NCBI GenBank assembly: GCA_021732585.1
Contig: JAKFUR010000003.1
Location: forward strand, 1-35,299
Direction: 5' to 3'
Source of the DNA: Bacteriovoracaceae bacterium
GTDB lineage: Bacteria > Bdellovibrionota > Bacteriovoracia > Bacteriovoracales > Bacteriovoracaceae
Length of the DNA stretch: 35,299 bases
This document shows, in pieces, positions 15,454-35,080 of this stretch (positions are counted from its first letter, which is position 1; every line of letters begins with the position of its first letter). A program made the translations under genes and the position numbers. The notes beneath the pieces are model-generated. The model worked only from the letters and a program-made list of their open reading frames with translations, was not told the origin of the DNA and ran no database searches.

Positions 15454-15780
15454 ATGAGTATGGAAAAGTCTCTCGCACCACCTGGTGCTCACCACCCATC
15501 AGCGCCGCCGACAGACTGGGATGAAGCTCAGCTCTCTCAACATGCGCGCGATTTACGTGAAAGACTTTTGCTTGCGTGCGCTGATTTGCGCACGACAGAT
15601 CAGCGCCGTGATTGGCTACTTCACATGACATTACAAACCCACCACCTCACGACGTTGCTTGAACTCATCGATCAGTTCAACCAATCTCAAATCGATGGAA
15701 GGGATTTAGGTTACGAATTTATTGATGTGAGCTTTCATGATCTTGGCGTGTATTTCAGACGACGCTCAGAGCTGATTTAG
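15454..15780 (+). CDS. Small protein of unknown function
   Basis: 108 residues. A Pro-rich N-terminus (~1-20) precedes a charged, probably helical region (residues ~25-80, WDEAQLSQHARDLRERLLLA and following), then a short acidic/aromatic C-terminus (FIDVSFHDLGVYFRRRS). No family is recognised and there is no signal peptide or membrane segment. A plausible sigma-70 promoter lies at 15396-15424, but no good Shine-Dalgarno sequence precedes the ATG. A second ATG at 15460 is an alternative start. Its 3' end overlaps the last 15 bases of the converging GNAT-like gene. It is probably a real gene, because the complementary frame is weaker and it fills the space between convergent neighbours. Confidence 0.55.
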   Translation: MSMEKSLAPPGAHHPSAPPTDWDEAQLSQHARDLRERLLLACADLRTTDQRRDWLLHMTLQTHHLTTLLELIDQFNQSQIDGRDLGYEFIDVSFHDLGVYFRRRSELI

Positions 15781-16881
15781 ATTCTTCCCGAACACCGCAT
15801 ACTTCGAAATCATATCTTTTTGGTCTTCGGTGTAACTCTTCAGCGCCGGACTATCTTCCGCGGTATAACAAATCAATAAGTGCGGTTGTGAGAGTGCTAC
15901 TGGCCAGAACATCTTTTTTGCTACCAAGCTCTGAATACCCTTAAACTCTTTTCCGTCTGGTGCCGGCAATCGGCCCACGTACATGATCAAGAGACGGCTA
16001 AAATTCATTTTAATACGTATGAGAAGCCATAATTGTGCAAGCTTGTTCGGCAGTTTTTTTTGCAAACGATGGTACTGCAAGATAATTGCGTGAGGGTCCA
16101 TGAAATTCACACAAAAAGCCACCGGCTTTCCGTCATGCTCAATAATAAAAGCAAACAACGGACTGATGATATGACGGAAACCTGCATAGAGTTTCTTGAA
16201 CGTCTCTAAGGGTATCGGTTCAAACTCAGGCATCTCGTTAAAAGTAGTCGTAAACAGTTGGTGAATGGTGGCCATTTCTTCATCGAAGCGTGACATATCC
16301 ACACCGCGAATATGTAAGCGATGCTCAGGCTTCTTCGCTTCACGAATCTCGCCGTACTGCCGCTTACTACGCCAAAACCGAATACGAAAGGTATCCCAGG
16401 TTTTGACTTGGTTCATGCCGACAGCGCGAAACAACTCTGGATAATAAGGCTTATGCATAGGCTCACCATAAAATGGTTTAGCTTTGCTCCAGGTCTTCCA
16501 ACGGTAGCTGACGAAGAAATGCATATTAATCGGGCCCTTGAGCTTGCTGGCCCCTAACTCTCTCGCCGCTTTCTCCACTTCATCCCACAAAAAACGAAAA
16601 TCTAAAGGAGCATCGTCACTCTCAACAAAGCCAACTTTGGCCACTTCAGGGCGATAGCCTGAAACAACAACCAATACGCGCGCGCGCAATTCTTTGTCTG
16701 AATAGAGAGAGAGTGCAATCCATTTGTCTTGTGGAAAGCCTATTGGGTCTTTTAGCAGTCCGCGGTAGTCATCAATTGATTCAAGCAGCACGCGCTTCTC
16801 ACCTGCGTAGAGTTTTTTGTGCTGATCTACCCAATCTTGAAAGAAAGCTTCATCCCAATTTGTGCGCTTTTCAATTCTCAT
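15766..16881 (-). CDS. GNAT-fold acyltransferase-like protein
   Basis: 371 residues. The pattern KGPINMHFFVSYRW (115-128) followed by a MHKPYYPELF segment (~142-151) resembles the N-terminal half of uncharacterised GNAT-like proteins of the YghO type, and the C-terminal half carries a second GNAT-like core (LFAFIIEHDGKPVAFCVNF). These are acyl-CoA-dependent acyltransferase folds; the substrate is unknown. It is the last gene of the leftward arm of the lipid-like cluster. Its ATG overlaps the TGA of the P450 gene in an ATGA, so translation is likely coupled. In this setting acylation of a lipid or amine intermediate is a reasonable guess. No signal peptide, so cytoplasmic. The family match is from memory. 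Confidence 0.65.
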   Translation of the reverse strand: MRIEKRTNWDEAFFQDWVDQHKKLYAGEKRVLLESIDDYRGLLKDPIGFPQDKWIALSLYSDKELRARVLVVVSGYRPEVAKVGFVESDDAPLDFRFLWDEVEKAARELGASKLKGPINMHFFVSYRWKTWSKAKPFYGEPMHKPYYPELFRAVGMNQVKTWDTFRIRFWRSKRQYGEIREAKKPEHRLHIRGVDMSRFDEEMATIHQLFTTTFNEMPEFEPIPLETFKKLYAGFRHIISPLFAFIIEHDGKPVAFCVNFMDPHAIILQYHRLQKKLPNKLAQLWLLIRIKMNFSRLLIMYVGRLPAPDGKEFKGIQSLVAKKMFWPVALSQPHLLICYTAEDSPALKSYTEDQKDMISKYAVFGKNLNQL

Positions 16882-18200
16882 CGTTGGGTCACTCTGAGAT
16901 GAATATTATTAGTCGCACGCAAAGTAATGCCTGCTTCTACGGTTTGTTTTTCCGGCGAAGGCAGGGCCCACTTATACTGACTACAAAGATTAGAAAGAAT
17001 AAGTTTAGCTTCCACTTGCGCAAAAATTTTCCCAATACACATACGTGGCCCAAGCCCAAAAGGGAAATAGGCGCCGGCCTTTACTTTCTCTCGCTCGCCC
17101 GCTAAAAATCTTTCCGGACGAAACGAAAGAGGATCTTGCCAAAAATCTTTCGAGCGCTGGGCAAAAAAGGGCATAAGGAAAACGATGTCGCCTTTTTTAA
17201 GTTCCAGGCCGTTCACATTCACGTTTTTTCCCGCTTGGCGCATGAAAGCCCAAACGGGTGGCCACAAGCGCATGCCTTCATCCATGACAGCAAGATGCAA
17301 GTTCACTTTATTAAAAGAAGCTTCTTGTAGTTTACCGTCTAACCAAAAGGTTTGTGACTCTTGCGCCAAACGTTCCTGGTACTCAGGATGCTTTGCGAGT
17401 TCAATCATGGCCCAGGCCATGCTGTTCGTAATGGTTTCGTGGCCCGCCATAAGAATGGTAATGATCTCATCGCGGATCTGCTGATCGCTCATGCTCTGGC
17501 CGTCTTCATCCTTAGCATCCATCAATATTTGTAGCAGATCATTTGATGCGATGGCGTCTTTCTGGCGACGCTGCTGCAACAAGCTTTCAATCAAACCATC
17601 AAATCGCGCCCTAGCGGCGAAGAACTCACGATGAGAAGGCAGCGGCATCCACATGGGAGGTGACGCCAGTGTGCGCACACGTTTAATCAGAAAATGCATC
17701 ATGAATTCGACATCTTTAAGAAACGTCGGGGCCTCTTTTGAGAGATCCATAGCAAACAAAGTCCGCGCAATAATTTTTAGCGTGAGTTCATTCATCTCAG
17801 AATGAATGTTGACGGTCGACTGATCTTTCCACTGACAATGATCAGTAATAATTTGTTGAATAGAAGGCACGAGATTGTACATGTGTTTCAAACCAAACAC
17901 CGGCCGCATGAGTCGGTTTTGTTTTTTCCACATCTCCCCTTCACTGGTGATCAGACCTTCACCCAAGAGAAGCTTCAGCTTTTTAAACGTGCGGCCTTTC
18001 ACAAAAGAATCCGGCTTCTCTTGCAGAATCGCCATGATGTCATCGGCATGTGATAGCAAATAAGCGCGCTGATGAAGCATGCGCAGTTTTACTCGATGTC
18101 CATACTTCTCATGGCAATCATTCACGAACGCCCACGGATCACCCATGTATTCACGGATGTCACCGAGTACACCGCCTTTATTAGGTCCTTTAATGTCCAC
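16878..18200 (-). CDS. Cytochrome P450
   Basis: Haem-thiolate monooxygenase. With numbering from the GTG at 18200 the landmarks are: C-helix WKKQNR (~91-96), I-helix oxygen-binding AGHET (~252-256), K-helix EGMR (~308-311), PERF (~362-365), and haem-binding FPFGLGPRMCIG with Cys388 as proximal ligand. All key residues are intact. The I- and K-helix pattern resembles the CYP4/CYP102 type that acts on fatty chains, but this is weak evidence of substrate. The start is uncertain: ATG at 18221 or 18260 would lengthen the protein and overlap the previous gene more. GTG 18200 is chosen because AGGAAAGG lies nine bases before it. Third to last step of the leftward arm; no ferredoxin or reductase is encoded nearby, so redox partners must come from elsewhere. 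Confidence 0.93.
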   Translation of the reverse strand: MDIKGPNKGGVLGDIREYMGDPWAFVNDCHEKYGHRVKLRMLHQRAYLLSHADDIMAILQEKPDSFVKGRTFKKLKLLLGEGLITSEGEMWKKQNRLMRPVFGLKHMYNLVPSIQQIITDHCQWKDQSTVNIHSEMNELTLKIIARTLFAMDLSKEAPTFLKDVEFMMHFLIKRVRTLASPPMWMPLPSHREFFAARARFDGLIESLLQQRRQKDAIASNDLLQILMDAKDEDGQSMSDQQIRDEIITILMAGHETITNSMAWAMIELAKHPEYQERLAQESQTFWLDGKLQEASFNKVNLHLAVMDEGMRLWPPVWAFMRQAGKNVNVNGLELKKGDIVFLMPFFAQRSKDFWQDPLSFRPERFLAGEREKVKAGAYFPFGLGPRMCIGKIFAQVEAKLILSNLCSQYKWALPSPEKQTVEAGITLRATNNIHLRVTQR

Positions 18201-20697
18201 TGATTTCAACCTTTCCTGCATCTGCGTCGAGCGTGATCCGCTCCACTCCACGCAGAGCATTCACAGCACCTCGCACTCCCACCAAGGTTGGAATCGAAAG
18301 CTCGCGACCAATAATCGCCGTATGACTTAGCAATGATCCTTTTTCAGAAATAAGTCCCCGGCACTGGCTCATGATATACACCCACGCTGGATCAGTATGC
18401 CGCGTGACGAGAATACAATCACTCAGATCGCCGTACTCCATGGCCTCAGTTGGGCTTTCCAGCACCAGCGGACGTCCACTCACTTTTCCTTGGGCGGCCG
18501 TTTGACCCACGAGATCACCCACATTCACTGCGACAGGAATTGTGGAGAGAGGAAGTTCATCCTTGCCTACCACTAAAAACTCAGCAAAAGGACCTTTAGC
18601 GCTTTGCCAGCCGGCCTTGTCTCTCATGAGTTGAACAAGTTCCTGCTCATTCATTTTTCCTTGAGCGAAAGCGAGATAATCATCCATGCTGGGATTAAAA
18701 AAATCATCGCGCTTGAAAGTGTGAAACGCAGGAAAGTCAGCGCGCAACTGCTCGGCTCCTCGTACCACCATTTCACGAACGAGATTAAAGAACTGCCCAC
18801 GCAACAAACGTGTGTGCTCGCGCCAGTGAATCGAACGTTTGGTCATTTTCCAACACGCCTTCCACGCCCAAAGGCGCCAGCCGGTAAAACTCTCAACGGA
18901 AAACTCCAACTTCTCATGTTTTTGTTGCTCGGCCTTCGTCGAGTGTCGCATAAACTGCATGAGTCGCACAAAATCGCTCGGCGATTGGCGCAGAGTCGGA
19001 CTTTCAAGTTTGAGTTCTTCAAAGGAACGATCCCCATAGCTCGCTAAAAATCCAGCAAGTAGTGTGGCCTCACGTCCCCAACCTTTCTGGCGAAGCTGCT
19101 CCCAAATAGGTCCGTAGATATCTCCCCACAGCTCTGCGTTTTGCGTGACCTCCACCCATGTTGGCCAAAAATCTTCCGGGAGGTCCGCAATCAGTACCTT
19201 AAGGGCCCTGAGTGGTTTAAGAGATTCTACTTCTTCACCCGTCTTCAACATCGGTGCGAGAATTTCTTCTCCTTTACCTTGAGAGGCGAGCAGGGCCGCT
19301 AAGCCTTTCACGCCGATCATGAGAATGACGTCGTTCAGCGCGGTGAGACCAAAGCCCATGGGACGAGCTAGTGTAGAATGAATCAATTGAAAGGTTTCTT
19401 GAGCGCTTCTGGTCGCGTGCACCTTCTCGCGAATAATTTTTTTATGTACTTCAAGGCTTTCGCTGAAACGCGACAGCACGCGATCCTGTGCCAAAATTAG
19501 ACGGATCAATTTTAACAAAGCCTTGATTTGTTCCCAAATTCCAAGTGGTGCCAAAAGCTCCGGCACGTCCATGCCCTCTTTTTTTCCACCGATCATGCGA
19601 TGCCAGTTCTCTATATTCTTTTTACCACCGGGCAGCGCGCTCAAGACAGCGTAGTAATGCTCGAGATCGTAGTAGAGATGATGGCCCACCTCGGCTACCA
19701 GACTTTGGTAGTGTCTCATCAACTCTGCTAAACGCTTTCCCTTGGCCCCCAGCAAAACAGCAGACTCAGCAAACACATTGCGGTAGCCGATTTTCACAAA
19801 ACTCGCCGTGAAAGGAGACACGACTCCTGGATATGACTCCGTGAGATTTGTGTCGGTGTAACTTTTGAGCGGCGGAAACTCCCGCGTGATGGGTCGCACT
19901 TGCAGGAAATAGAGTTGATCTCCTTCATACGCCCATTCCACATCAATAGGATGACCGCGTTTTTTCTCTAAACGCAAAGTCTCTTTGACGAGTTCGTTGA
20001 CTTCGCTTTCGGTCAGACACGGAATCGTTTGTTTCTCACTTGGCACTTCAATGCCGCGAGTTCCGCCTTGCGGATGGGCCCCGAGCGCCGTTTTTTTGTC
20101 AGCGATGCGTTCGATGAGAACTTCTTCCAGGCGCGACACACGCCAATGGTCCGTTTCAACAAGCCCGGACACGACACCCTCACCGACTCCCCAAGCCGCA
20201 TCAATCACCACATCGGCCGTGGGTGCCACCGGAGAACGACTAAAAGCCACACCTGCAACGCGCGGATCAAGCATCTTCTGAATCACCACCGCCATCTTGA
20301 GTTCTTGCGTGATATTTTTTTCTTTGCAGTAGGCCCGCACACGATCACTTTGAATCGCCAGATAAGCATCTTTGATTTTTTCTACGAGCTGATCACGTGT
20401 GACATAGAGAAATGTTTCGAACAGGCCCGCGAAACTCGCGCCTTGCCCATCTTCACCTGTGACCGAAGAGCGCACAGCGAGCCAGCGGGGCTGCCATGAA
20501 TCTACATGCCTAAAAACTTCGACCATGGTTCCTGTGGGAATATCCCCGGTGCGCGCCAGCTCATCACCGATTTCCGTTGGAAGAATCAAAAACGGTGGTA
20601 CACGCTGACCGGCCTCTACCAACGCCAAAAGTTGATGGCCTTTGCCACCCACACTCTCTCGTTCAGCCAATGAGGGAGGGAGAACCGGATGAATCAT
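18190..20697 (-). CDS. PEP-synthase-like dikinase with rifampicin-phosphotransferase architecture
   Basis: 835 residues from ATG 20697, which overlaps the upstream TGA as ATGA. A start at ATG 20757 or 20736 would overlap the previous gene much more. The N-terminal ~300 residues are a PPDK/PEP-synthase ATP-grasp domain (VGGKGHQLLALVEAG near the start; AVRSSVTGEDGQGASFAG). A long central region has no clear relatives. The C-terminal ~80 residues are the swivelling phosphohistidine domain, KGSLLSHTAIIGRE, with His792 as the likely phosphorylated residue. There is no PEP-binding TIM barrel after it, unlike true PEP synthase. This order matches rifampicin phosphotransferase and related enzymes, which use ATP to phosphorylate a small molecule. 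The substrate is probably a cluster intermediate. Part of an overlapped leftward operon. Confidence 0.85.
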   Translation of the reverse strand: MIHPVLPPSLAERESVGGKGHQLLALVEAGQRVPPFLILPTEIGDELARTGDIPTGTMVEVFRHVDSWQPRWLAVRSSVTGEDGQGASFAGLFETFLYVTRDQLVEKIKDAYLAIQSDRVRAYCKEKNITQELKMAVVIQKMLDPRVAGVAFSRSPVAPTADVVIDAAWGVGEGVVSGLVETDHWRVSRLEEVLIERIADKKTALGAHPQGGTRGIEVPSEKQTIPCLTESEVNELVKETLRLEKKRGHPIDVEWAYEGDQLYFLQVRPITREFPPLKSYTDTNLTESYPGVVSPFTASFVKIGYRNVFAESAVLLGAKGKRLAELMRHYQSLVAEVGHHLYYDLEHYYAVLSALPGGKKNIENWHRMIGGKKEGMDVPELLAPLGIWEQIKALLKLIRLILAQDRVLSRFSESLEVHKKIIREKVHATRSAQETFQLIHSTLARPMGFGLTALNDVILMIGVKGLAALLASQGKGEEILAPMLKTGEEVESLKPLRALKVLIADLPEDFWPTWVEVTQNAELWGDIYGPIWEQLRQKGWGREATLLAGFLASYGDRSFEELKLESPTLRQSPSDFVRLMQFMRHSTKAEQQKHEKLEFSVESFTGWRLWAWKACWKMTKRSIHWREHTRLLRGQFFNLVREMVVRGAEQLRADFPAFHTFKRDDFFNPSMDDYLAFAQGKMNEQELVQLMRDKAGWQSAKGPFAEFLVVGKDELPLSTIPVAVNVGDLVGQTAAQGKVSGRPLVLESPTEAMEYGDLSDCILVTRHTDPAWVYIMSQCRGLISEKGSLLSHTAIIGRELSIPTLVGVRGAVNALRGVERITLDADAGKVEISGH

Positions 20698-21566
20698 CCC
20701 CACCAACCCGCGACCAGGAGGAAAATGACGTTCCATAAAATCTGAGCTTCGGCCCATTGCTTAAGAGGCTTATTGATTTTGAGTGTGAACAAAAAGTAGA
20801 TCGAGGGTGCCATGAGGACGAGCTGGATTGCGCCGTAGCTCCAGGACCAAAGCGCTGTTGTTCCCATCTTATGCAATAAGAAGAAAGACGTGGCAGCAAC
20901 AATCGACTGAAAGATGAGTGTGAGACTAACGGCCACTCGCGGTCCCCAGATCTTTGAATAGGTGACGTAGTCATTTTCATCACGGGGTTGCTTAATCTTG
21001 CGAGAGATTTCCCAGTTGGTGAACATGAAGCAGATCGGCAGCAGATAATACGCATCCCGAGTTTCAGTGGCGGTGGTCATGGAGGCCGTCAAAAGATACA
21101 TAAAATGAAAGAGGACAATGGGATGATGGGAATACAACGCTAACGGCAATGAAGCGCGGATCTGCTTTTCGAGACCAAACCAGATCAGCATGAGGTACGA
21201 ATAAAACAAAACCCCGAGGCCCATGCCAAGTACATCTTCGTGCCACACCGACACGGCGATACTGACGGCCACGCAAACCCAACCTAAAACTTTCAGGTCA
21301 CTCTTGAGCACGCGACCCGACGGGAGCGGACGATCGGGAAAAAGTCGGACATCTAATTCGTAATCTTTAAACTCATCCATGACCCGCAAGAGCAGCGAGA
21401 AGAAACAGAGTCCCACACACGCGAGCAGCGTGTGCCACTCGAACTGTTGATCGATTCGTCCCAGGCGCCAGGCCACGGTGAGTACCATGAACCCACACAG
21501 GAATGTTCCGAGCCAGCTGCTGAACGGATACATCTCTTTGAAATAAATCATCCAGCGCTTCAACAT
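20694..21566 (-). CDS. UbiA-family prenyltransferase
   Basis: 290-residue polytopic membrane protein with about eight or nine hydrophobic segments. The two Asp-rich motifs that bind Mg-diphosphate are visible: MDEFKDYELD (63-72, the NDxxDxxxD position, with Asp replacing Asn) followed by DRPLPSGRV (78-86), and a second DENDYVTYSKIWG (~196-208). The family transfers an isoprenoid from a diphosphate to an aromatic, heme, chlorin or glycerol-phosphate acceptor. The acceptor here is unknown. The gene starts 7 bases after the CarS-like gene and ends in an ATGA overlap with the dikinase gene. It lacks the usual ubiquinone or menaquinone gene neighbours, so a housekeeping quinone role is unlikely. 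Confidence 0.85.
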   Translation of the reverse strand: MLKRWMIYFKEMYPFSSWLGTFLCGFMVLTVAWRLGRIDQQFEWHTLLACVGLCFFSLLLRVMDEFKDYELDVRLFPDRPLPSGRVLKSDLKVLGWVCVAVSIAVSVWHEDVLGMGLGVLFYSYLMLIWFGLEKQIRASLPLALYSHHPIVLFHFMYLLTASMTTATETRDAYYLLPICFMFTNWEISRKIKQPRDENDYVTYSKIWGPRVAVSLTLIFQSIVAATSFFLLHKMGTTALWSWSYGAIQLVLMAPSIYFLFTLKINKPLKQWAEAQILWNVIFLLVAGWWG

Positions 21567-21573
21567 AGAGTTC

Positions 21574-22116
21574 TCACAGAGGTTGGCGGCGTAAACCGCA
21601 GGCCCACAAAATTAAATTAACCACCACATGAACGATCGCCCCGAAGAAAAAGAGCACGGTCCACAAAGCACCATCGCCAATGCCAAAAAGGGCATAGACG
21701 ATGATGCAGCCCACGGCCGAGTCGGTCTGATCAAGAAAAGAAAAGAGCCATGGAAAACGCTCGGACGTCTCGCCCGGCTTGATGCCCATGCGGCGTTTGA
21801 CGTAAGAATTTGGTAGCTCAGAAATTACGTAGCCAAGTCCCAAGGCCAGTCCTAATCCCAGCATAGAATGGCCCGTCAGAAGACCTGTATTCCAGAGCGC
21901 ATCTAAGACTTCAGCTGGCCACATTCCCAGCACCGTAAGTAAGGGCATGACAACCACCCCACGCCAGGTCTTGTTTGCTCCTAAAGCCTGCAAATGTAGA
22001 GGGATTTTGAGGAATGAGAAATGATCAAATCTCACCACCAGCATATGCAAAATTCCACCCACGATAAGAGGGAGAATCATGACGACGATTTTTTGCCAAA
22101 ACAGGGGTGCCAGCAT
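21574..22116 (-). CDS. CarS-like CTP:lipid-phosphate cytidylyltransferase
   Basis: 180-residue membrane protein with about five hydrophobic segments. Motifs of the CDP-archaeol synthase (CarS, formerly DUF46) family are clear: GANKTWRG (46-53), SELPNSYVKRRMGI (99-112) and FLDQTDSAVG (127-136). CarS activates a lipid phosphate with CTP to a CDP-lipid before head-group transfer. Bacterial members exist, but most are uncharacterised. It is the first gene of the leftward arm, divergent from a lipid kinase that could supply its phosphorylated substrate. ATG 22116 lacks a clear ribosome site; ATG at 22080 (residue 13) is an alternative start. Confidence 0.8.
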   Translation of the reverse strand: MLAPLFWQKIVVMILPLIVGGILHMLVVRFDHFSFLKIPLHLQALGANKTWRGVVVMPLLTVLGMWPAEVLDALWNTGLLTGHSMLGLGLALGLGYVISELPNSYVKRRMGIKPGETSERFPWLFSFLDQTDSAVGCIIVYALFGIGDGALWTVLFFFGAIVHVVVNLILWACGLRRQPL

Positions 22117-22243: not shown

Positions 22244-23221
22244 ATGGCTTCTATCGTTTTTTATCACAACTCCAAGGCGGGCCGCGGTGGTCTTCCTCAC
22301 TCAGAGAGTGAGTTGCGTAAATTCTTTTTTCGCCACGATGTGACTTTCCGTTACCCGAAATCTCGCGAAGAACTCCTCACGAGCCTTGATGACGATCTCA
22401 AAACGGGCAAAGAGTATGTTTTCTCAGTCGGTGGTGACGGAACTGCCAACACCATCGCACAAAAACTGCTTCATCAAGAAACACGTTTAATGGTTATTCC
22501 ATCAGGCACCGCCAATGATTTTGCCGGTGGATTGGGTCTTACTCCAAGCATCCGCAAAATTGCCAACGTCTTTCACGCTCAACACACGCGCCTGGTGGAT
22601 GTGATCGAAGTAAACGGTCGCGCTATGGTTTCCAACGGCGGACTCGGGATCGCTGCTATCGTTGCACAGGAAATTAACGAAAAACGAAAGACCGGTCAGA
22701 TTTTTAAGAATCTCATGCACACGTTGGGCAGTGATATCTACGGTTTCACTTTGCTGCAACATCTCATGACAAGACCTTTCCCTCTGCAAGACATTCGAGT
22801 CAGCTCAACTGACGCGCCAGAATTAGACGTGGTGACCAGCCCGCTCATTCTTGTGAATAACCAGCCGCTCCTTGGTGGAAAATTTCGTGTGGCACCGGAA
22901 ACAAATAATACTGACGGAACATTCAACGTCACGGTCTTCCATCATCAAGACAAGATGAGCTTCATTCAATGCATCGTTCGTATTCTTCGCACGGGCATGC
23001 CGGCGCACGGAGAAAATGTAACGACCTTCGAGACCAATAACCTCACTCTTACTCCACTGACCGCAGGGCCCATGAGTTTTTTTGGAGACGGCGAGCAGTT
23101 TACGCATGACACCAGTTACTCCATCCGCCTGGTTCCCCAATGCCTGCGCGTTTGCGCTGTCAATGATCAGATGCTTTATGACTCAGGTCATAACCTGGAA
23201 GAAATTCCGAAGCTCCAATGA
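22244..23221 (+). CDS. Diacylglycerol-kinase-family lipid kinase (YegS/BmrU type)
   Basis: 325 residues, normal for the family. The catalytic nucleotide-binding loop GGDGTAN (63-69) and the PSGTANDF motif (86-93) are intact, and the C-terminal DAGK beta-sandwich includes GGKFRVAPETNNTDGTFNV. These soluble, membrane-associated enzymes phosphorylate lipid alcohols such as diacylglycerol or sphingoid-type lipids with ATP. First gene of the rightward arm. Its TGA overlaps the next ATG (ATGA at 23218-23221). Facing a CarS-like CTP transferase, it could make the lipid phosphate that enzyme uses; that link is inference. There is no strong ribosome site before the ATG. Confidence 0.92.
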   Translation: MASIVFYHNSKAGRGGLPHSESELRKFFFRHDVTFRYPKSREELLTSLDDDLKTGKEYVFSVGGDGTANTIAQKLLHQETRLMVIPSGTANDFAGGLGLTPSIRKIANVFHAQHTRLVDVIEVNGRAMVSNGGLGIAAIVAQEINEKRKTGQIFKNLMHTLGSDIYGFTLLQHLMTRPFPLQDIRVSSTDAPELDVVTSPLILVNNQPLLGGKFRVAPETNNTDGTFNVTVFHHQDKMSFIQCIVRILRTGMPAHGENVTTFETNNLTLTPLTAGPMSFFGDGEQFTHDTSYSIRLVPQCLRVCAVNDQMLYDSGHNLEEIPKLQ

Positions 23222-24255
23222 ATATCCTCCTGACCGGTGCGACTGGTTTTATTGGACGTCGACTCACCCACGCGCTGGCGGCGAAGGGACATAAGATCGG
23301 ACTCCTCATCCGTCCGAGTAGTTTGGCACGCGCTAAGAAAACTTTTCGCGACCTTCCGAATGTTCATTTCATTGAAGCCGATATTTCTCGCAATGATGTG
23401 GTCGTTCGTGTAGCTGGCACCGAAGCAATCCTGCAAGAAACAGATGCGGTCATTCATCTCGCGGGGACCTACGATCTTGCCATCCCACTAGAGGAGGCTT
23501 ACACCAACAACGTCATTGGCACCCAGAACATGGTTTGGTTTGCACAACGTTTGAACCGCTTGCCCTACTTTCATTATATCAGTACCTACGCTGTCAATTC
23601 TCACTGCCAAGGCCATGTGGGAGAAGACCAGATCGATGCCACGAGCAAGCTCGCTGATCATTACGCCCAAACTAAATTGCAGGCCGAAAGCATCGTGCGC
23701 CAAGCTGCTTGGGGTCCAACAAAAGTTCGCATCTATCGTCCAGGTGTGATTGTGGGCGACTCGCTCACAGGAGCGATGGATAAAATTGATGGACCTTATT
23801 TTTTCTTTCGTCTCTTTAATCAGATGAGGAAATGGAAAAGTCTAACTCGCAGGATGCCCTTTTTTCCGATTGTCGGACGGCAGGGAGCACAAGTTCCCTT
23901 GCTGCCTGTTAATATTCTCGCTGACTGGCTTACCACCATGGTGGAAAAACCCAGCGCGCATGAGCTGCGTTCCTATCATTTGGTTTCACAAGAAAATCTC
24001 CTCGTGGAAAATTTTTTGCGCGAGTCACTTAAGGCCTACAGCGTGCCCCTCATGGTTCGTCGTATGCCAGAGACGCGTCTTTTTAATCCCGTCTTGCCGC
24101 TGGTAGGAATTCCACGTGAAGTGGCTCCTTATCTTTACTCAACAGCGAGCTTCTCCCGCGAGCATGTCGACGAAGATTTTCCGAACCTCAAGGCTCCGCT
24201 CTTCAGCGACTACCTCCCAAAGCTGGTAGAAGGTGCGCGGGGGCTTTTCGAATGA
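23218..24255 (+). CDS. NAD(P)-dependent epimerase/dehydratase (extended SDR)
   Basis: 345 residues. The Rossmann motif is at the N-terminus (TGATGFIG, 6-13), and the catalytic pair is visible as HYAQTK with Tyr149 and Lys153; ISTYAV (121-126) contains the usual Ser/Thr position. Extended SDRs of this shape reduce or epimerise sugars, sterol-like substrates or fatty-chain carbonyls. The substrate is not evident. It is joined by ATGA overlaps to the lipid kinase before and the acyl-reductase-like gene after, so it probably acts on the same molecule, for instance reducing a carbonyl made by that reductase. Confidence 0.9.
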   Translation: MNILLTGATGFIGRRLTHALAAKGHKIGLLIRPSSLARAKKTFRDLPNVHFIEADISRNDVVVRVAGTEAILQETDAVIHLAGTYDLAIPLEEAYTNNVIGTQNMVWFAQRLNRLPYFHYISTYAVNSHCQGHVGEDQIDATSKLADHYAQTKLQAESIVRQAAWGPTKVRIYRPGVIVGDSLTGAMDKIDGPYFFFRLFNQMRKWKSLTRRMPFFPIVGRQGAQVPLLPVNILADWLTTMVEKPSAHELRSYHLVSQENLLVENFLRESLKAYSVPLMVRRMPETRLFNPVLPLVGIPREVAPYLYSTASFSREHVDEDFPNLKAPLFSDYLPKLVEGARGLFE

Positions 24256-26276
24256 AAGAGATCATCAAAGTCGCCTACGGGCCATCGAGTGAAAACTACG
24301 ATGCAAAATTTAGTTTTAAAGGTGAGGATTATCGACTGAAGCGGCTCGGTGTGGATGCCAACGTGGATCTCGCCCTCCATTTACTCAAAAATTTTCGTCA
24401 TGAGTGCGACGCCTTTGCCGTCGCCGGCTTTCCACCTATCTTAAAAATTGGTCGCGAGACAATCATTCATCCGGTCTATAAACAACTCCGTGAAGCAGCT
24501 GGTACAACACCTGTGGCCGACGGAACCTTACTCAGAAAAACCTCGTTTTTGTGGGCGCTCAAAAGTTTATTGAAGCGTGAGCCTTTGCTCTTGAGTCAGA
24601 AAAAAATTGGCTTCTTCTGCGGGATCTTTCAAGCGGACTTCTTACATTTCTTTGAGGAGCACACCTCGGATTTGGTATTTGCCGATCTGTATTTCTCTCT
24701 TGGCATTCCAAAACTCATGCACTCTTCACGCCAACTGACGAAAGCTATGGGGCGTCTCACTCCCGCTTTGATGAAAGTATCGGTCGGGAAGAAATTTACT
24801 AAGGATTACGACGCACTTATTTTTCGCACGCCCCTGATGCGTGAGTTTCACCGCTGCGATGTTTATATTATCCACAAGACTCAACTCGACTACGTGAAAC
24901 TCTGGCCACTCGAGGGAAAAACCGTCATCGTTGACTCTTTAGACCGCTTCACCAAAGAAAAGCTCGTTGCCGCGGGTGCCGGACGAATCATCAGTTGTTT
25001 CCCTGAATTTCCCGCCCATCCTGAGATTGGCTGTGCGGCTCTGGAAGCTCTTTTCTTGGCCCATCAACCTGATAAAGTTCTTGATGAGGAAACACTTTTA
25101 CAAGAAGTGCGCTCTCTTGAGGCCCATCCGACGATCATAGAAACGGAAACAAAATCAAAGACAGCGCAGTTTGCTTTTGTGATTCATCCGCTGACACAAA
25201 AGCAACTTTTTCTTGTCCCGGGAATGAAGAATTTTAGCAACCTGCCTATCGCACGCGGCATAGAAAAAATGATGGGCAAGGTTCCCGGCTTTTACTACTG
25301 CAAGATGAACGGCATCAAATCAGAATTCAACGGACAAGAAGTTGAAGGCGAACTCTACGTCTTGCCTGCCACTCCCAAACAACTGCTACGCCAGGATCCT
25401 GAGAGTATCTATCGTCGGATTCATCAGCTCTGCTTACTCGCCCATAGCCGTGGCACAAACATTATTGGCCTAGGGGCGTACACCAAGATCGTGGGTGATG
25501 CCGGTGTGACTATCGCCAATCGCTCCCCTATTCCCGTCACCACCGGAAACTCACTCTCAGCTGCGGCCACTTTGTGGGCGGCAAGTTACGGCCTTGAGCG
25601 AATGGATCTCGTTAAAAAAGGAGCCGATGGTCGCTATCAGGGTACCGCCATGGTGATTGGCGCTACTGGAAGTATTGGCAAAGTCTGTGTGCGCCACCTT
25701 TGTCATCAGTGGGAAAAGGTCATTTTGGTGGCCCCTCGCCCTTACAAAGTTCTTGATCTCGTTGATGAAATGAAAGGTCATTGTCCCAATACAGAAATCA
25801 TTGGATCAACTCATCCCGACAAGTACACCCCGGATTGCGATCTCATCATCACCTCGACTTCGGCGCAAGGTGAGAAGGTGATGGATATCGCCAAGGTGAA
25901 ACCAGGTGCGGTGATCTGCGATGTCAGTCGCCCGTTTGATTTGGGTCTTGATGACGTCTCGACTAGGCCAGATGTGCTCGTGATCGCCAGTGGTGAAGTT
26001 GAGTTACCTGGGCAAGTTAAAATTGGCAAAACGCTTAATCTGGAAGGTGGTGCTGTGTACGCGTGTTTGGCAGAAACTGCGCTGTTGGCCATGGAAGGGC
26101 GTTTTGAAAATTTTAGCCTCTCCCGTGAACTCGATTACGATAAAGTTATTGAGATTGACCAACTTGCTCGCAAACACGGCATTCGTCTGTCGGCTATCAT
26201 GGGGCACACCGGCGAAATCACCGATCAAGAAATCGCTCTTTGCCGTGAACATGCATTAAAAGTTCGTCTCACTTAG
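24252..26276 (+). CDS. Fused protein: uncharacterised dehydrogenase-like domain plus acyl-ACP-reductase-like domain
   Basis: 674 residues, about twice the ~340 of cyanobacterial acyl-ACP reductase (AAR). The C-terminal half (~330-674) follows AAR closely: HSRGTNIIGLGAYT (~400-413), NADPH-binding GATGSIG (470-476), then YACLAETALLAMEGRFENFS with Cys605 at the position of AAR catalytic Cys294 and ARKHGIRLSAI near the end. AAR reduces fatty acyl-ACP to fatty aldehyde through a Cys thioester. The N-terminal ~310 residues resemble proteins annotated from memory as quinate 5-dehydrogenase-like (FADLYFSLGIPKLMHS, EGKTVIVDSLDRFTKEKL); their true activity is unknown to me. ATGA overlap with the SDR gene. 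No aldehyde-deformylating oxygenase is present in the window, so an alkane end product is not implied. Confidence 0.85.
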   Translation: MKEIIKVAYGPSSENYDAKFSFKGEDYRLKRLGVDANVDLALHLLKNFRHECDAFAVAGFPPILKIGRETIIHPVYKQLREAAGTTPVADGTLLRKTSFLWALKSLLKREPLLLSQKKIGFFCGIFQADFLHFFEEHTSDLVFADLYFSLGIPKLMHSSRQLTKAMGRLTPALMKVSVGKKFTKDYDALIFRTPLMREFHRCDVYIIHKTQLDYVKLWPLEGKTVIVDSLDRFTKEKLVAAGAGRIISCFPEFPAHPEIGCAALEALFLAHQPDKVLDEETLLQEVRSLEAHPTIIETETKSKTAQFAFVIHPLTQKQLFLVPGMKNFSNLPIARGIEKMMGKVPGFYYCKMNGIKSEFNGQEVEGELYVLPATPKQLLRQDPESIYRRIHQLCLLAHSRGTNIIGLGAYTKIVGDAGVTIANRSPIPVTTGNSLSAAATLWAASYGLERMDLVKKGADGRYQGTAMVIGATGSIGKVCVRHLCHQWEKVILVAPRPYKVLDLVDEMKGHCPNTEIIGSTHPDKYTPDCDLIITSTSAQGEKVMDIAKVKPGAVICDVSRPFDLGLDDVSTRPDVLVIASGEVELPGQVKIGKTLNLEGGAVYACLAETALLAMEGRFENFSLSRELDYDKVIEIDQLARKHGIRLSAIMGHTGEITDQEIALCREHALKVRLT

Positions 26277-26338: not shown

Positions 26339-27574
26339 TTGAAAACCACCAATAGCTACCTCTTTAAACTCGCCAAAAAGAACGTCAATCGCAACCGCGG
26401 TCGCAGTTTTTTTATTGGTCTCTCTGTTTCACTTTCTGTCGTCATGGCCGTGTGGATTCTCGCCTTCTTTGATGGCATGAATCACCAGATCGAAAAAGCC
26501 GTGGTAGTCGGTAACGTTGGCTACTGGCAATTGCAAGAAGCTAACTACGCCGATACGACAGATCCACTGAGTCCGAGAGTGTGGGACGCAAGTTTTGAGA
26601 AAGCACTCCAGGACAAAAAAATTCTTTCGTACTCCCCAGAGCTCGTTCTCGACGGCTACCTTTCAGGCCCTTACGGAAACGCTGCCTTGCAAGTGGTGGG
26701 CGTAGACTTTGCACTTCACCAAAAAACCATGGATATTGGCTCGCATCTCGATAGCGGAAGTTGGCCCACGAATAATGAACGCGGCATCGTTATCGGACGT
26801 GAGACTGCAGAACGTTTTCAGTACGTCGTGGGCGATAACCTCGTGATGAATTTCCAAGATGCCAAAGGTGAACTGCGCAGCGAGCTTCTTCCCGTTCTAG
26901 CGATCTACCACCACAACGGCCGCACCTTCGAGCGTCGCTACGCCTACGTTAGCGGTGATATCGTCGAAGAATACCTCTTCGGTGTCGCCGATCCACGCAC
27001 CATGATTCATCGAGTGGTTGTGATGACAAAGGATCTGCCGTCAGGCCAAGAAACGATGGAGCAAGCCGCACGCACTTCTAAAACAGAATTACGTTCGTGG
27101 AAACAAATCAATCCTGAAATGGGAGTGGTGCTGGATTTTCACGAAGGCCTCATCCGTTTCTTTTTCATCATCATCGCTATCACTGTAACTGTGACAATTC
27201 TCACACCCGTCAGCATGCTCTGGCAGGAGCGTCTCGGCGAAATACGTATGATGTCGACTATTGGTGTTCCCCGCAAGACGATCTGGCGATTAGGCATGTT
27301 TGAAGCGGGCATCATGACACTGCTGTCAGCCACGGCCGCGTCGATTGTTCTCATCATCATCATTAGCATCAATTCAAAAACTGGAATTCATTTCCGTGAA
27401 CTGGCCCAAGGCCAGGGACTCGAGCGCGCGGGCATCCAACTCCCGACTGCCATCTACCCTCTCTTGCTCGCCAAACAACTCTTCGTCACCTACGGCTTCG
27501 TCGTCTTTATCATGTTCCTGAGTTACGGCTTTGCCGTGAGAAGTGTTGTTAAAAAAGCGGAGGCCGTCACATGA
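26339..27574 (+). CDS. FtsX/LolC-type ABC transporter permease
   Basis: 411 residues. An N-terminal membrane segment (~24-44) is followed by a large periplasmic domain (MacB-PCD-like, to ~270) and three more C-terminal membrane segments that form the FtsX core. This is the topology of LolC/LolE/MacB permeases, which extract lipoproteins or other amphiphiles from the outer leaflet of the inner membrane rather than pumping across it. The start must be TTG at 26339, because an in-frame TGA lies at 26306 and the next ATG is inside the first membrane helix; GGAG is only two bases away. The stop overlaps the next ATG (ATGA). Confidence 0.88.
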   Translation: MKTTNSYLFKLAKKNVNRNRGRSFFIGLSVSLSVVMAVWILAFFDGMNHQIEKAVVVGNVGYWQLQEANYADTTDPLSPRVWDASFEKALQDKKILSYSPELVLDGYLSGPYGNAALQVVGVDFALHQKTMDIGSHLDSGSWPTNNERGIVIGRETAERFQYVVGDNLVMNFQDAKGELRSELLPVLAIYHHNGRTFERRYAYVSGDIVEEYLFGVADPRTMIHRVVVMTKDLPSGQETMEQAARTSKTELRSWKQINPEMGVVLDFHEGLIRFFFIIIAITVTVTILTPVSMLWQERLGEIRMMSTIGVPRKTIWRLGMFEAGIMTLLSATAASIVLIIIISINSKTGIHFRELAQGQGLERAGIQLPTAIYPLLLAKQLFVTYGFVVFIMFLSYGFAVRSVVKKAEAVT

Positions 27575-31509: not shown

Positions 31510-32430
31510 TTATCCGTCCAGGGATTTGATACGACAAGCCTCTATCTCAAGTTCCAGGCCCTTAACCCACGCGACACGTTCATAATCAATATCGCGATCC
31601 AGGGTAAGCCTAAGTTTGTTTTTTGCCAATAAAAGCTCGTAGTAGGCGAGCGCTCTTTTAGCTTCATACCATTCTAGACTTTGGCCTTCTACTTCTTTTT
31701 CATTCGGAAAAAAGCTTGTGAACCGAGTAAACTCTTTATGAGAAAGAATCATAATCAAATCCCCACTACCCTCAATTGCAAGATAGGGTAGACGAGAGCA
31801 AACCATCACCACGTCTTCTTCGTGCTGAATTATAGATGAGAGTACTTCGAATGAGTTGAGTTGAACCTCCTGTTGCCAAGGGGTCATCCCTAATTTTTTT
31901 TCAATTTTTTTTAATGAAATTTCTAACTTCCTAACCTCAAATTCTTCTGTGTTGAGCCTAAGGTCACGCTTGATCCACCCAAGCTTTCGTAAAAACCAAA
32001 CTTCCAAGAAGAGTTTACTCCATTTCAATTGCAGTTGTTCAAGCCTGGCCTCTTCTTGCGCAGTATGAATTTCCGGAACGTCTAGCATCGGAAATAGTGT
32101 AAGTAATTGTGGAATTGCTAACGCAACACTTTTTATTGATTGCTCATCGGGCACAACAATTGTGAGATCCAAGTCAGATAGAAAGGGGTTAAATTCTTTT
32201 TCTAAAACTGAATGGCGAACAAGTACACGCACTCCCACTGGGAGACGTACGCGAACAACCTCAGTCAAGATACACTTGTAAAAAAACTGAACAGGTGAAC
32301 GTAGAAGCTTCACGAGCCAAGGAGTCTCTGCACAACTCAACAAGAGGCCTCTGAACCAAGCGGGTAGTCTGGGTTTCTTGCCATTCACAACCCTTTTGGA
32401 CTCTCTTGAATTCAGAGTACCAGCCGGCAC
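31510..32430 (-). CDS. Nucleotidyltransferase-fold-like protein of unknown function
   Basis: 306 residues. Residues ~66-95 (VGVRVLVRHSVLEKEFNPF then SDLDLTIVVPDE) resemble the core of a polymerase-beta-type nucleotidyltransferase, where the DLD carries the metal-binding acidic pair; the usual preceding Gly-Ser is replaced by His-Ser, so activity is uncertain. The remainder is rich in helices with many charged residues and is not recognised. The GTG start at 32430 shares one base with the TAG of the radical SAM gene upstream (TAGTG), which suggests coupled translation and a shared task. No signal peptide. Codon use and A+T content resemble those of the radical SAM genes. Confidence 0.6.
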   Translation of the reverse strand: MPAGTLNSRESKRVVNGKKPRLPAWFRGLLLSCAETPWLVKLLRSPVQFFYKCILTEVVRVRLPVGVRVLVRHSVLEKEFNPFLSDLDLTIVVPDEQSIKSVALAIPQLLTLFPMLDVPEIHTAQEEARLEQLQLKWSKLFLEVWFLRKLGWIKRDLRLNTEEFEVRKLEISLKKIEKKLGMTPWQQEVQLNSFEVLSSIIQHEEDVVMVCSRLPYLAIEGSGDLIMILSHKEFTRFTSFFPNEKEVEGQSLEWYEAKRALAYYELLLAKNKLRLTLDRDIDYERVAWVKGLELEIEACRIKSLDG

Positions 32431-33704
32431 TATGTGTCCTCCAACATTCTCTTAAGCTCCGGAAAAGTTTCTATAAAACTCTCACCGCGGATTCTATCAA
32501 GAGCACTTGTCCGTTCACGGAATTGCGCATTTTGCTCAGAAGAATCTTTTTCATTCATAAATTTAATCACATTGCGAACTGTTGCCGTTAGTTTTTGCCA
32601 ATCCTCACGATTATTATTTTTATCTACATAAGCGTTCAATTTTCTGGTTGTTTTTTCTTTGAGGTCGAGAGGTAGGGTTTGAATCACGTATTCGATTGGG
32701 TCTAGCAACATATTAACATTGAATTCATTAGGTCCCATGAGTCCTGTGAAAGTTAGCCATTCTATTATTTCGGGTAAATAGTACACATTATGAACACTCA
32801 CGGTGCAGTTAATGTAACGGCGAATGCCTGGAAAATCCTCCACGAGGCGTCGCATATTAGCGACAATCGTATTCCAATCGGTTCCCTTTCTAAAATATTC
32901 GGCACGAGGACCAATATCATCAAGGCTTATTCCGATAACAACTTCTTTGAAGTGTGACCACATGCGAGCCAAGTCTTGATTCCCATAGGCCAGAGTACTT
33001 AGATTCGTATTGTACGACAGGCGCACATCGGTTTTGTTTTGAGCTATTAAAAGTTTAAGAACTTCAAAATGCTCTCGTGTAATGAGAGGTTCACCACCAC
33101 CAAAGTAAATTTCTTCGGCATCAGGGATCATTGTTTTTAATTCTTCCCAAAATGTTGGCGAGTCGGTTGCGATGCTTGAGACGCGTGCTTTATCACTTTT
33201 GTAATTATAAAGCTGTTGATGATCCTCGTACCAAGCACTGCTCAAATCGGGTCCACATCCGCGGCAACGAAAATTACATAAGTTACTAAAACGGATATCA
33301 ATGTATTTGAGTTTTAAATCAGGGTGTGAGCCATCAGAGTTAGTCAGTGCCAAGGTAGATGCTAAGTGAGCAAAACGATTATTATTGCTTTGTCTCATGC
33401 TTCCAAAACCGGCTTTATCCAAAGCATAGCAGTGCTCACAGCCAGCTGAAGCTTTGCCTGCCAGCATGTTCTTGCGAAGCTCGCGATATTTTTCACTATT
33501 CCAAATACTACCGACATCCTGAGTCTTCCCGTCTCCAAATTTGTCTTGATATGGCCAAACGCAACAAGGAATGACGGCTGAATTTGGCATTACATGCAAA
33601 TGAACCCAAGGGATCATACAAAATACTTGATCCGCGTTGAGGATAGCACCCATCTTGTCGAGATCAGCGAGATTTTGAGATTCTAGTGGCAACACTGGTG
33701 GCAT
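32430..33704 (-). CDS. Radical SAM protein with N-terminal twitch/SPASM-like domain
   Basis: 424 residues. The radical SAM [4Fe-4S] motif SNLCNFRCRGC (CxxxCxxC: Cys143, 147, 150) is followed by the SAM-binding GGGEPL. Before it, Cys29, Cys47-Cys48, Cys89 and Cys92 form a set that fits an auxiliary iron-sulfur cluster in an N-terminal twitch-type domain, the reverse of the usual C-terminal SPASM order. This matches the family called twitch domain-containing radical SAM protein (from memory). Such enzymes often modify peptides, but the substrate is unknown. Divergent from a paralogue at 33773. The stop overlaps the next gene in TAGTG. Confidence 0.9.
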   Translation of the reverse strand: MPPVLPLESQNLADLDKMGAILNADQVFCMIPWVHLHVMPNSAVIPCCVWPYQDKFGDGKTQDVGSIWNSEKYRELRKNMLAGKASAGCEHCYALDKAGFGSMRQSNNNRFAHLASTLALTNSDGSHPDLKLKYIDIRFSNLCNFRCRGCGPDLSSAWYEDHQQLYNYKSDKARVSSIATDSPTFWEELKTMIPDAEEIYFGGGEPLITREHFEVLKLLIAQNKTDVRLSYNTNLSTLAYGNQDLARMWSHFKEVVIGISLDDIGPRAEYFRKGTDWNTIVANMRRLVEDFPGIRRYINCTVSVHNVYYLPEIIEWLTFTGLMGPNEFNVNMLLDPIEYVIQTLPLDLKEKTTRKLNAYVDKNNNREDWQKLTATVRNVIKFMNEKDSSEQNAQFRERTSALDRIRGESFIETFPELKRMLEDT

Positions 33705-33772: not shown

Positions 33773-35080
33773 ATGTTGTTTTCTTCCAAAGAGCACTGTT
33801 CAGTTATGGTAGAAAAAATTAGTAAGACGTTTTGCCCTCTGGCCTGGAATCACAGTTTCGTAAATCTCGGCGGAGAGATGCAACTATGTTGTACAGCTGA
33901 AGAATTTCACGAGGCGATTCTTAACAACCAAGGACTTCCATTTCGCATCCAGGACAAACCTGGGCTGAATGAGGTTATGAATTCAGATTTTATGAAATCT
34001 ATCCGCCTGGAAATGCTCGCGGGGACATTTCCTAAAATTTGCCAGCGATGCGCCACAACCGAGCACAATGGAGGTAACAGCCGCCGACTAGTTGAGTTGG
34101 AAAAATCCCGACTTCTCCAAGACCTTTCTCAACTCGCTCAGAATACCGCACCCGATGGCACTATTCCGCTCGCTATTAGTTCAGCTGACTATCGTCTTGG
34201 CAATGTCTGCAATCTTGAATGTCGCATGTGTCATCCCGCATCATCTGCGGCTTGGCTTAAAGACTGGAACGAGGTGAAGGGCACCAGCGAACAACTTGGT
34301 CCTGCGGCAATGGCAAAGTACGCTCGTTATGACTGGGTGGATGATGATGGTGTACTGGAAGATTTAAGAATGAAAGTAGGTGCCCTCGATAATCTACACT
34401 TTGCAGGCGGCGAACCACTGTTTGCGTCTCGAATGTCTGAAATGCTCAAAATTTGTATTGAAAGTGGGCGAGCTGATAAAATTGTACTCAGCTATAATAC
34501 CAACATGACTCGTATTCCGAATCCGATCAAAGAGCTTTGGCCGGCATTTGCCGAGGTTCGTCTCTACTGCAGTGTCGACGGCTTTGGACCTGTGAATGAT
34601 TACATCCGTCTGAATTCTCGCTGGAAAGTAATTGATGAGAATCTCAGAATGCTAGACCAAGAAGCCGAAAAGCTACGCATCAGTGTCATGATGCTTTCAA
34701 CTACGGTTCAAGTCTATAACGTGCTCAATCTCGCTGAGCTTTATGATTACACAACGACCTTTAAGCACATGGCAAAAGCACTTAACCTCATAAGCCTTTA
34801 TCGACCTGATTATACCCAAACCCAGGTTCTGCCTATGGAAGCTAAAGAAGAAGCTGCACGCCGCTTGCGTCAAGCACAAGCCAAAGCAGCTGGATTAGTC
34901 GGGCCTTATCATAAGTATCTGCTCTCAGGTGTCGACGAGACAATTAACCACATGATGTCAGAGGACCTGACGCACTTATTGCCACAGCTTATGGAATACA
35001 CACGCAAAGTGGATTCACGCAAAGGCATGAGACTACAGGACTATATTCCAGACGTGTATCACTACCTATCCAAGAGATAG
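33773..35080 (+). CDS. Second radical SAM protein with N-terminal twitch/SPASM-like domain
   Basis: 435 residues. The radical SAM motif is LGNVCNLECRMC (Cys146, 150, 153), with AGGEPL as the SAM-binding motif. The N-terminal cysteines Cys21, Cys39-Cys40, Cys90 and Cys93 repeat the arrangement of the neighbouring paralogue (Cys, 17 residues, CysCys, then CxxC), so both probably hold an auxiliary iron-sulfur cluster. Sequence otherwise diverges, so the two may act on different sites or as a pair. The start could be ATG 33773 or ATG 33806 (MVEKISKTFCPLAW); neither has a good ribosome site. It is followed by 130 bases and rplU. Confidence 0.9.
   Translation: MLFSSKEHCSVMVEKISKTFCPLAWNHSFVNLGGEMQLCCTAEEFHEAILNNQGLPFRIQDKPGLNEVMNSDFMKSIRLEMLAGTFPKICQRCATTEHNGGNSRRLVELEKSRLLQDLSQLAQNTAPDGTIPLAISSADYRLGNVCNLECRMCHPASSAAWLKDWNEVKGTSEQLGPAAMAKYARYDWVDDDGVLEDLRMKVGALDNLHFAGGEPLFASRMSEMLKICIESGRADKIVLSYNTNMTRIPNPIKELWPAFAEVRLYCSVDGFGPVNDYIRLNSRWKVIDENLRMLDQEAEKLRISVMMLSTTVQVYNVLNLAELYDYTTTFKHMAKALNLISLYRPDYTQTQVLPMEAKEEAARRLRQAQAKAAGLVGPYHKYLLSGVDETINHMMSEDLTHLLPQLMEYTRKVDSRKGMRLQDYIPDVYHYLSKR

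Follow-up and report, generated by a model that had tools for sequence, protein, structure and literature searches.

Acyl-ACP reductase (AAR) is known mainly from alkane synthesis in cyanobacteria, where it makes up one half of the pathway. A gene of a Bacteriovoracaceae bacterium (Bdellovibrionota) raises the question of what an AAR-like domain does outside cyanobacteria, and what the second domain fused to it is. The gene lies in a window of 35,299 nucleotides, which is the whole stretch of DNA that was analysed (contig JAKFUR010000003.1, positions 1 to 35,299, forward strand) and comes from a draft genome of 2.58 Mb that is 77% complete (assembly GCA_021732585.1). Our reading, to which we assign a probability of about 0.7, is that the protein carries two AAR folds in tandem, in which an active C-terminal copy follows a degenerate N-terminal copy and would deliver an aldehyde to a neighbouring SDR for the synthesis of an alkyl lipid. 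This reading draws on sequence comparison, structural models and analogy with known enzymes.

The gene and its locus

The features of the gene and of the two genes that precede it are as follows.

22244-23221 (+): YegS-like lipid kinase (domain match, DAGK_cat and YegS_C), GGDGT motif kept
23218-24255 (+): NAD_binding_4 (male-sterility/FAR-like) SDR (domain match), likely partner aldehyde reductase
24252-26276 (+): putative tandem AAR-like protein, whole gene, 674 aa
24252-25151 (+): N-terminal half, residues 1-300, putative degenerate AAR fold
25035-25037 (+): Ala262, N-copy counterpart of Cys605 in the profile alignment
25167-26273 (+): C-terminal half, residues 306-674, predicted complete AAR/PigE-type thioester reductase domain
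25659-25679 (+): predicted nucleotide-binding loop GATGSIG, residues 470-476
26064-26066 (+): codon of the predicted catalytic Cys605

The open reading frame at 24252-26276 is intact, with an ATG start and no internal stops. Its start overlaps the SDR gene by 4 nt, and the SDR gene in turn overlaps the lipid kinase gene by 4 nt; these coordinates indicate that the kinase, SDR and tandem AAR genes are probably translationally coupled. A preliminary description of this DNA had reported the reading frame and the fusion, and both proved to be real. In fact, several phyla have full-length proteins of the same architecture, with 32-92% identity, and the fusion is therefore not an assembly artefact. 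Among the matches listed, and in the tree, the closest relatives are Bacteriovoracaceae-type MAGs of Bdellovibrionota.

The C-terminal half resembles AAR and PigE

NCBIfam searches matched residues 335-667 to PigE (1.3e-48; 166 bits, below the equivalog cut-off of 850) and also returned AcACP_reductase, TIGR04058 (2e-13; 50.4 bits, below the equivalog cut-off of 449.7). The PDB sequence matches of this half were PigE (4ppm) and AAR (6jzq/6jzu). Judged by sequence, the 674-residue protein is a member of the AAR superfamily and not an AAR equivalog. A profile built from 35 homologues matched 4ppm at 1.6e-41 over protein residues 310-649, starting at PigE residue 2, and matched cyanobacterial AAR at 3e-16. 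For the whole protein, Foldseek matched the AlphaFold model (pLDDT 88.8) to 6jzy, which is AAR with NADPH and stearoyl (E 8.8e-19, TMt 0.78), and also to the carmabin-pathway TAD, which is AAR-like. The family and structure matches thus bear out the AAR assignment that had been made for this half.

The functional residues of the cyanobacterial enzyme SeAAR, whose Cys294, Arg189, Arg193, Arg314 and Tyr247 have described roles (PMC7089970), were located by alignment. Cys605 aligns with the catalytic Cys294 and is invariant in 77/77 homologues. G470, G473 and G476 align with G162, G165 and G168, so that GATGSIG corresponds to GATGDIG at SeAAR 162-168, and the loop with its glycines is found in all 77. 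The NADPH motif and the cysteine are thus kept, as had been proposed. Among the arginines that bind the NADPH ribose phosphate, R189 and R314 have counterparts in R496 and R625, and R193 aligns with V500, which is beside K499. In SeAAR, Tyr247 shapes the acyl tunnel and contacts NADPH (PMC7089970); since this position is occupied here by Arg560, invariant in 77/77, the substrate geometry may differ from that of SeAAR. Residue 496 (window 25737-25739) is Arg in nearly all Bdellovibrionota, and in the alignment it is Glu or Asp in many Pseudomonadota, in the Actinomycetota and in some Chloroflexota. This variation suggests a possible split between NADPH and NADH as cofactor within the family.

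The N-terminal half is probably a remote relative of AAR

The N-terminal 300 residues or so had been assigned to a different, uncharacterised family with a dehydrogenase-like character. Searches of Pfam, NCBIfam and the PDB (sequence and HMM) gave zero matches for this region, in agreement with the lack of a named sequence family, whereas structural modelling and profile-profile comparison pointed to a distant relative of AAR and did not support the assignment to a different family. When the N-terminal half was modelled alone from 57 homologues with AF2 (pLDDT 89.6, pTM 0.86), the best Foldseek match in the PDB was the AAR-like TAD 9e4u (E 4.7e-6); glutamate dehydrogenases and AAR 6jzq (4e-4) came next. 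The Foldseek alignments to AAR-like structures extend over about 380 columns, more than the 307 residues of the query, and the order of helices and strands parallels that of the C-terminal half when the whole-protein and N-only models are compared.

The profile of the N-terminal half gave a weak score of 28.2 against the C-terminal halves of the fusions alone (P 0.006; reached by 6 of 100 block shuffles), 44.0 against these halves together with PigE-type AARs (P 2.8e-5, over N29-300) and 47.4 against PigE-type AARs alone (P 7.5e-6). The alignments scoring 44-47 span 225-239 columns. For comparison, the column-shuffle background was 14.8 ± 2.4 with a maximum of 21.2, and 17 unrelated neighbour families used as controls, SDR and Fe-ADH included, scored 13-22. 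The match between the two halves is strong only once PigE-type AARs are included, so that it does not prove a direct duplication within the gene. The alignment pairs P87 and G91 with P428 and G432, P251 with P586, E265 with E608, and A262 with Cys605. At the position of Cys605, the N-terminal half has a Cys in 0/77 members, and a GxxGxxG-type nucleotide loop is likewise present in 0/77, as compared to 77/77 for the C-terminal half. Because fold and profile homology to AAR goes together with loss of both motif and Cys in 77 members, the most likely reading is that the N-terminal half is an AAR copy that has degenerated, and that the protein is a pair of AARs in tandem of which the first is degenerate.

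These data bear on two other explanations. If the N-terminal half were a second active oxidoreductase of another family, the protein could carry out two redox steps, from thioester to aldehyde to alcohol. A Rossmann-like fold with glutamate dehydrogenase matches, an invariant Asp145 just past beta-2 and a near-invariant Lys223 would fit such an enzyme. However, neither the nucleotide loop nor the active-position Cys is found in any of the 77 members, the half has profile homology to AAR, and the separate SDR or Fe-ADH gene that adjoins the fusion would be redundant, all of which makes a second activity improbable; the resemblance to dehydrogenases concerns the fold only.

The other explanation is that the N-terminal half is not an AAR duplicate and was recruited independently, either from the wider two-domain superfamily of amino-acid-dehydrogenase-like proteins or as a paralogue that once stood alone and became fused. 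The glutamate dehydrogenases among the fold matches would agree with this, as would the existence of stand-alone N-type proteins of about 318 residues and the fact that the N-terminal profile scores slightly higher with PigE-type AARs than with the set that includes its own partner halves. Yet the top fold match is an AAR-like domain, the alignment crosses AAR-specific segments beyond the Rossmann motif (the Pro/Gly, Pro and Glu pairs given above), and the SDR and Fe-ADH controls score at background level. We hold this explanation to be possible, though clearly the less favoured one. As to how the degenerate copy arose, duplication within the gene and fusion of a stand-alone paralogue are both possible.

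Stand-alone relatives of the N-terminal half were observed at L066:9592-10545, L067:9487-10443 and L068:2995-3951, with 25-28% identity. The genomes with such proteins mostly carry the fusion too, and the neighbours of these proteins give no functional hint.

Distribution of the fusion

A match was found in 120 of 369 Bdellovibrionota genomes; 11 of the 120 had no fusion signal (N-type or PigE/TamH-type proteins only), which leaves the fusion architecture in about 109 of the 369, some copies being cut by contig ends. Outside this phylum, full-length homologues with 32-36% identity over residues 1-672 came up in a scan of GTDB genomes; the best 80 homologues were kept, and the spread over phyla is thus a lower bound. 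The carriers among these listed matches are Chloroflexota (Herpetosiphon, Chloroflexus, Anaerolineae), Pseudomonadota (Betaproteobacteria, and Gammaproteobacteria including Halomonadaceae and Endozoicomonas), Actinomycetota (Gordonia, Nitriliruptoraceae) and a Wallbacteria MAG. In the tree, Chloroflexota form one clade and Actinomycetota another. The occurrence of an AAR fusion outside cyanobacteria, which had been singled out as unusual, is real, but it is widespread over several phyla. In the papers searched, we found no description of a doubled-AAR protein family, nor of a Bdellovibrionota lipid cluster or pathway around the tandem AAR. What merits attention here is the doubled architecture and its conserved cluster, AAR fusions as such being already known.

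Conserved genomic context

The other genes around the fusion in the window are as follows.

18190-20757 (-): PEP-synthase/rifampin-phosphotransferase-like protein (PPDK_N and PEP-utilizers), recurrent neighbour
20694-21566 (-): UbiA-like prenyltransferase, recurrent neighbour
21574-22116 (-): CarS-like (PF01864, 3.2e-06) putative CDP-lipid synthase, divergent to the operon
26339-27574 (+): LolC/E-like permease (domain match, MacB_PCD and FtsX), kept in the congeneric locus L031
27571-28779 (+): LolC/E-like permease (domain match), kept in L031
28769-29449 (+): LolD-like ABC ATPase (domain match), kept in L031
29446-30177 (+): LolA_like (PF17131, 7.5e-46) outer-membrane lipoprotein-sorting protein

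In the Bdellovibrionota loci with enough upstream sequence, the SDR gene was directly upstream of the fusion and on the same strand in 66/66, which strengthens the link to this gene that had been proposed, and a lipid kinase gene was upstream in 65 of the same 66 (55 of these genes are distinct). A DUF3419/BtaA-like gene was found within 9 kb of the fusion in 43/49 loci (e.g., L101:13895-14992), a PEP-synthase-like gene at 9.5 kb or less in 43/49, an AMP-ligase gene in 38/49 and a UbiA-like gene in 35/49, counts that include some genomes twice. DUF3419 occurs in 48 of 144 genomes of the phylum; that most of the phylum has it close to the fusion suggests a lipid head group derived from SAM. The cluster in the window is without DUF3419, the genome having only a weak DUF3419 protein away from the locus (G000:C149), and runs on into the LolC/E-, LolD- and LolA-like genes, which are kept in the sister genome.

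Other genes of the window were also annotated. The divergent block at 16878-22116 (-) comprises the CarS-like, UbiA-like and PEP-synthase-like genes and a P450, and its members recur near the fusion across the phylum; beside it, at 15766-16881, lies an unmatched protein of 371 residues. At 392-12382 (-) there is a gene whose product of 3996 residues, which contains DUF2341 and fibronectin type III domains, is probably a large protein of the cell surface. Two divergent radical SAM/SPASM proteins are encoded at 32430-33704 (-) and 33773-35080 (+), the second being a member of the twitch-domain family (7.6e-100), and an unmatched gene for 306 residues at 31510-32430 adjoins the pair.

In the other phyla, among the loci with enough flank, the fusion had as neighbours a Fe-alcohol dehydrogenase in 8/23, WS/DGAT in 4/23 and an SDR in 4/26, and a lipid kinase in 0/26. 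The genes next to the tandem AAR thus differ between phyla, with lipid kinases in some and alcohol dehydrogenases or wax-ester synthases in others. The recurrence of an alcohol-forming oxidoreductase, SDR or Fe-ADH, beside the fusion supports a fatty aldehyde as its product. ADO (PF11266), the oxygenase whose absence had been pointed out, was found in 0/144 Bdellovibrionota genomes and was detected in the Synechococcus control; alkane synthesis was rejected on this ground. WS/DGAT also gave 0/144 in the phylum, a count to be read with the fact that the control genomes gave no match either; the Pfam model does find the neighbours in other phyla. A role in a wax-ester or alkane pathway in Bdellovibrionota too, as the WS/DGAT and Fe-ADH neighbours in Betaproteobacteria might lead one to expect, is very improbable against these two counts.

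A different fate of the aldehyde, in a small molecule of the prodiginine or tambjamine kind rather than in a fatty alcohol or lipid, is brought to mind by PigE as the closest solved relative, by the recurrent PEP-synthase/PigC-like neighbours and by TamH-like proteins in other genomes of the phylum. We consider it unlikely: neither an aminotransferase domain nor MBC genes were seen in the cluster, the neighbours in the window are a lipid kinase, a CarS-like gene and Lol-type transport genes, with DUF3419 elsewhere in the phylum, and wax-ester genes adjoin the fusion in other phyla. One Bdellovibrionota genome encodes, at L069:5557-8169, a protein of 870 residues with a class-III aminotransferase and an AAR domain in TamH-like order, and similar proteins of 850-1080 residues occur in several other genomes, which may indicate that tambjamine-like compounds or amines are made there.

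Proposed mechanism

In AAR, PigE and TamH, the acyl group moves to the Cys and hydride then frees the aldehyde (PMC7089970, PMC8341465, PMC9594044). By analogy, the C-terminal copy of the tandem AAR would be the working enzyme, with an acyl thioester (of ACP or CoA) loaded onto Cys605 and a hydride given by NAD(P)H at GATGSIG, so that a long-chain aldehyde would be freed. The N-terminal copy, having lost the nucleotide loop and the Cys, may have a structural, docking or regulatory role. The aldehyde would be handed to the coupled NAD_binding_4 SDR, which probably turns it into fatty alcohol or uses it in another way. The product would then become part of a lipid, in whose synthesis the YegS-like kinase would take part and whose export would fall to the products of the downstream LolCDE/LolA-like genes. 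More tentatively, the dead copy could act as a partner within the same protein, taking up or positioning the aldehyde as ADO does in cyanobacteria, and the tandem enzyme could stand at the head of an undescribed, phylum-wide Bdellovibrionota lipid pathway of kinase, SDR, tandem AAR, BtaA-like protein, AMP ligase and PEP-synthase-like protein.

If the tandem reading is true, a doubled AAR present in several phyla would be an overlooked bacterial source of fatty aldehydes and alcohols, and a clear case of a pseudoenzyme copy retained next to its active twin. The fixed gene order in Bdellovibrionota points to a lipid of these predators.

Comparison with known systems

Bacterial fatty-acyl reductases of other folds are known: Acr1, FarA, AcrB and FcrA are of the SDR or HMGR type and do not have the AAR fold (PMC11948995, PMC5806253), and they share with the tandem AAR the proposed role of supplying fatty aldehyde or alcohol for wax esters or ether lipids. 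Two candidates for a characterised member of the present family were ruled out, Nevskia 'Ramo' being an Acr1-type SDR (PMC5806253) and archaeal FcrA being HMGR-type (PMC11948995).

AAR-domain fusions outside cyanobacteria have been described in PigE (prodigiosin) and TamH (tambjamine), in both cases with transaminases (PMC8341465, PMC9594044). PigE (4ppm), the closest solved relative by sequence, is thus a precedent for such a fusion. Its partner domain and that of TamH are class-III transaminases, whereas the partner in the tandem protein would be a degenerate AAR-like domain and no PLP enzyme; Pfam Aminotran_3 gave zero matches in the 674 residues. The TAD of the carmabin pathway (9e4s/9e4u/9e50) has an AAR-like fold that matches both halves, but it is a single copy and belongs to an assembly line of the NRPS type ('amino acid adenylation domain protein').

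With cyanobacterial AAR (SeAAR, 6JZQ/6JZU/6JZY; TIGR04058), the tandem protein shares the fold, the GATGxIG loop, the catalytic Cys and, in the alignment, counterparts of two of the three arginines for the NADPH ribose phosphate. SeAAR has a Tyr where the tandem protein has an invariant Arg, and is a single domain of 341 residues with ADO as its partner, while the protein described here is a 674-residue tandem without ADO and with about 20% identity to it.
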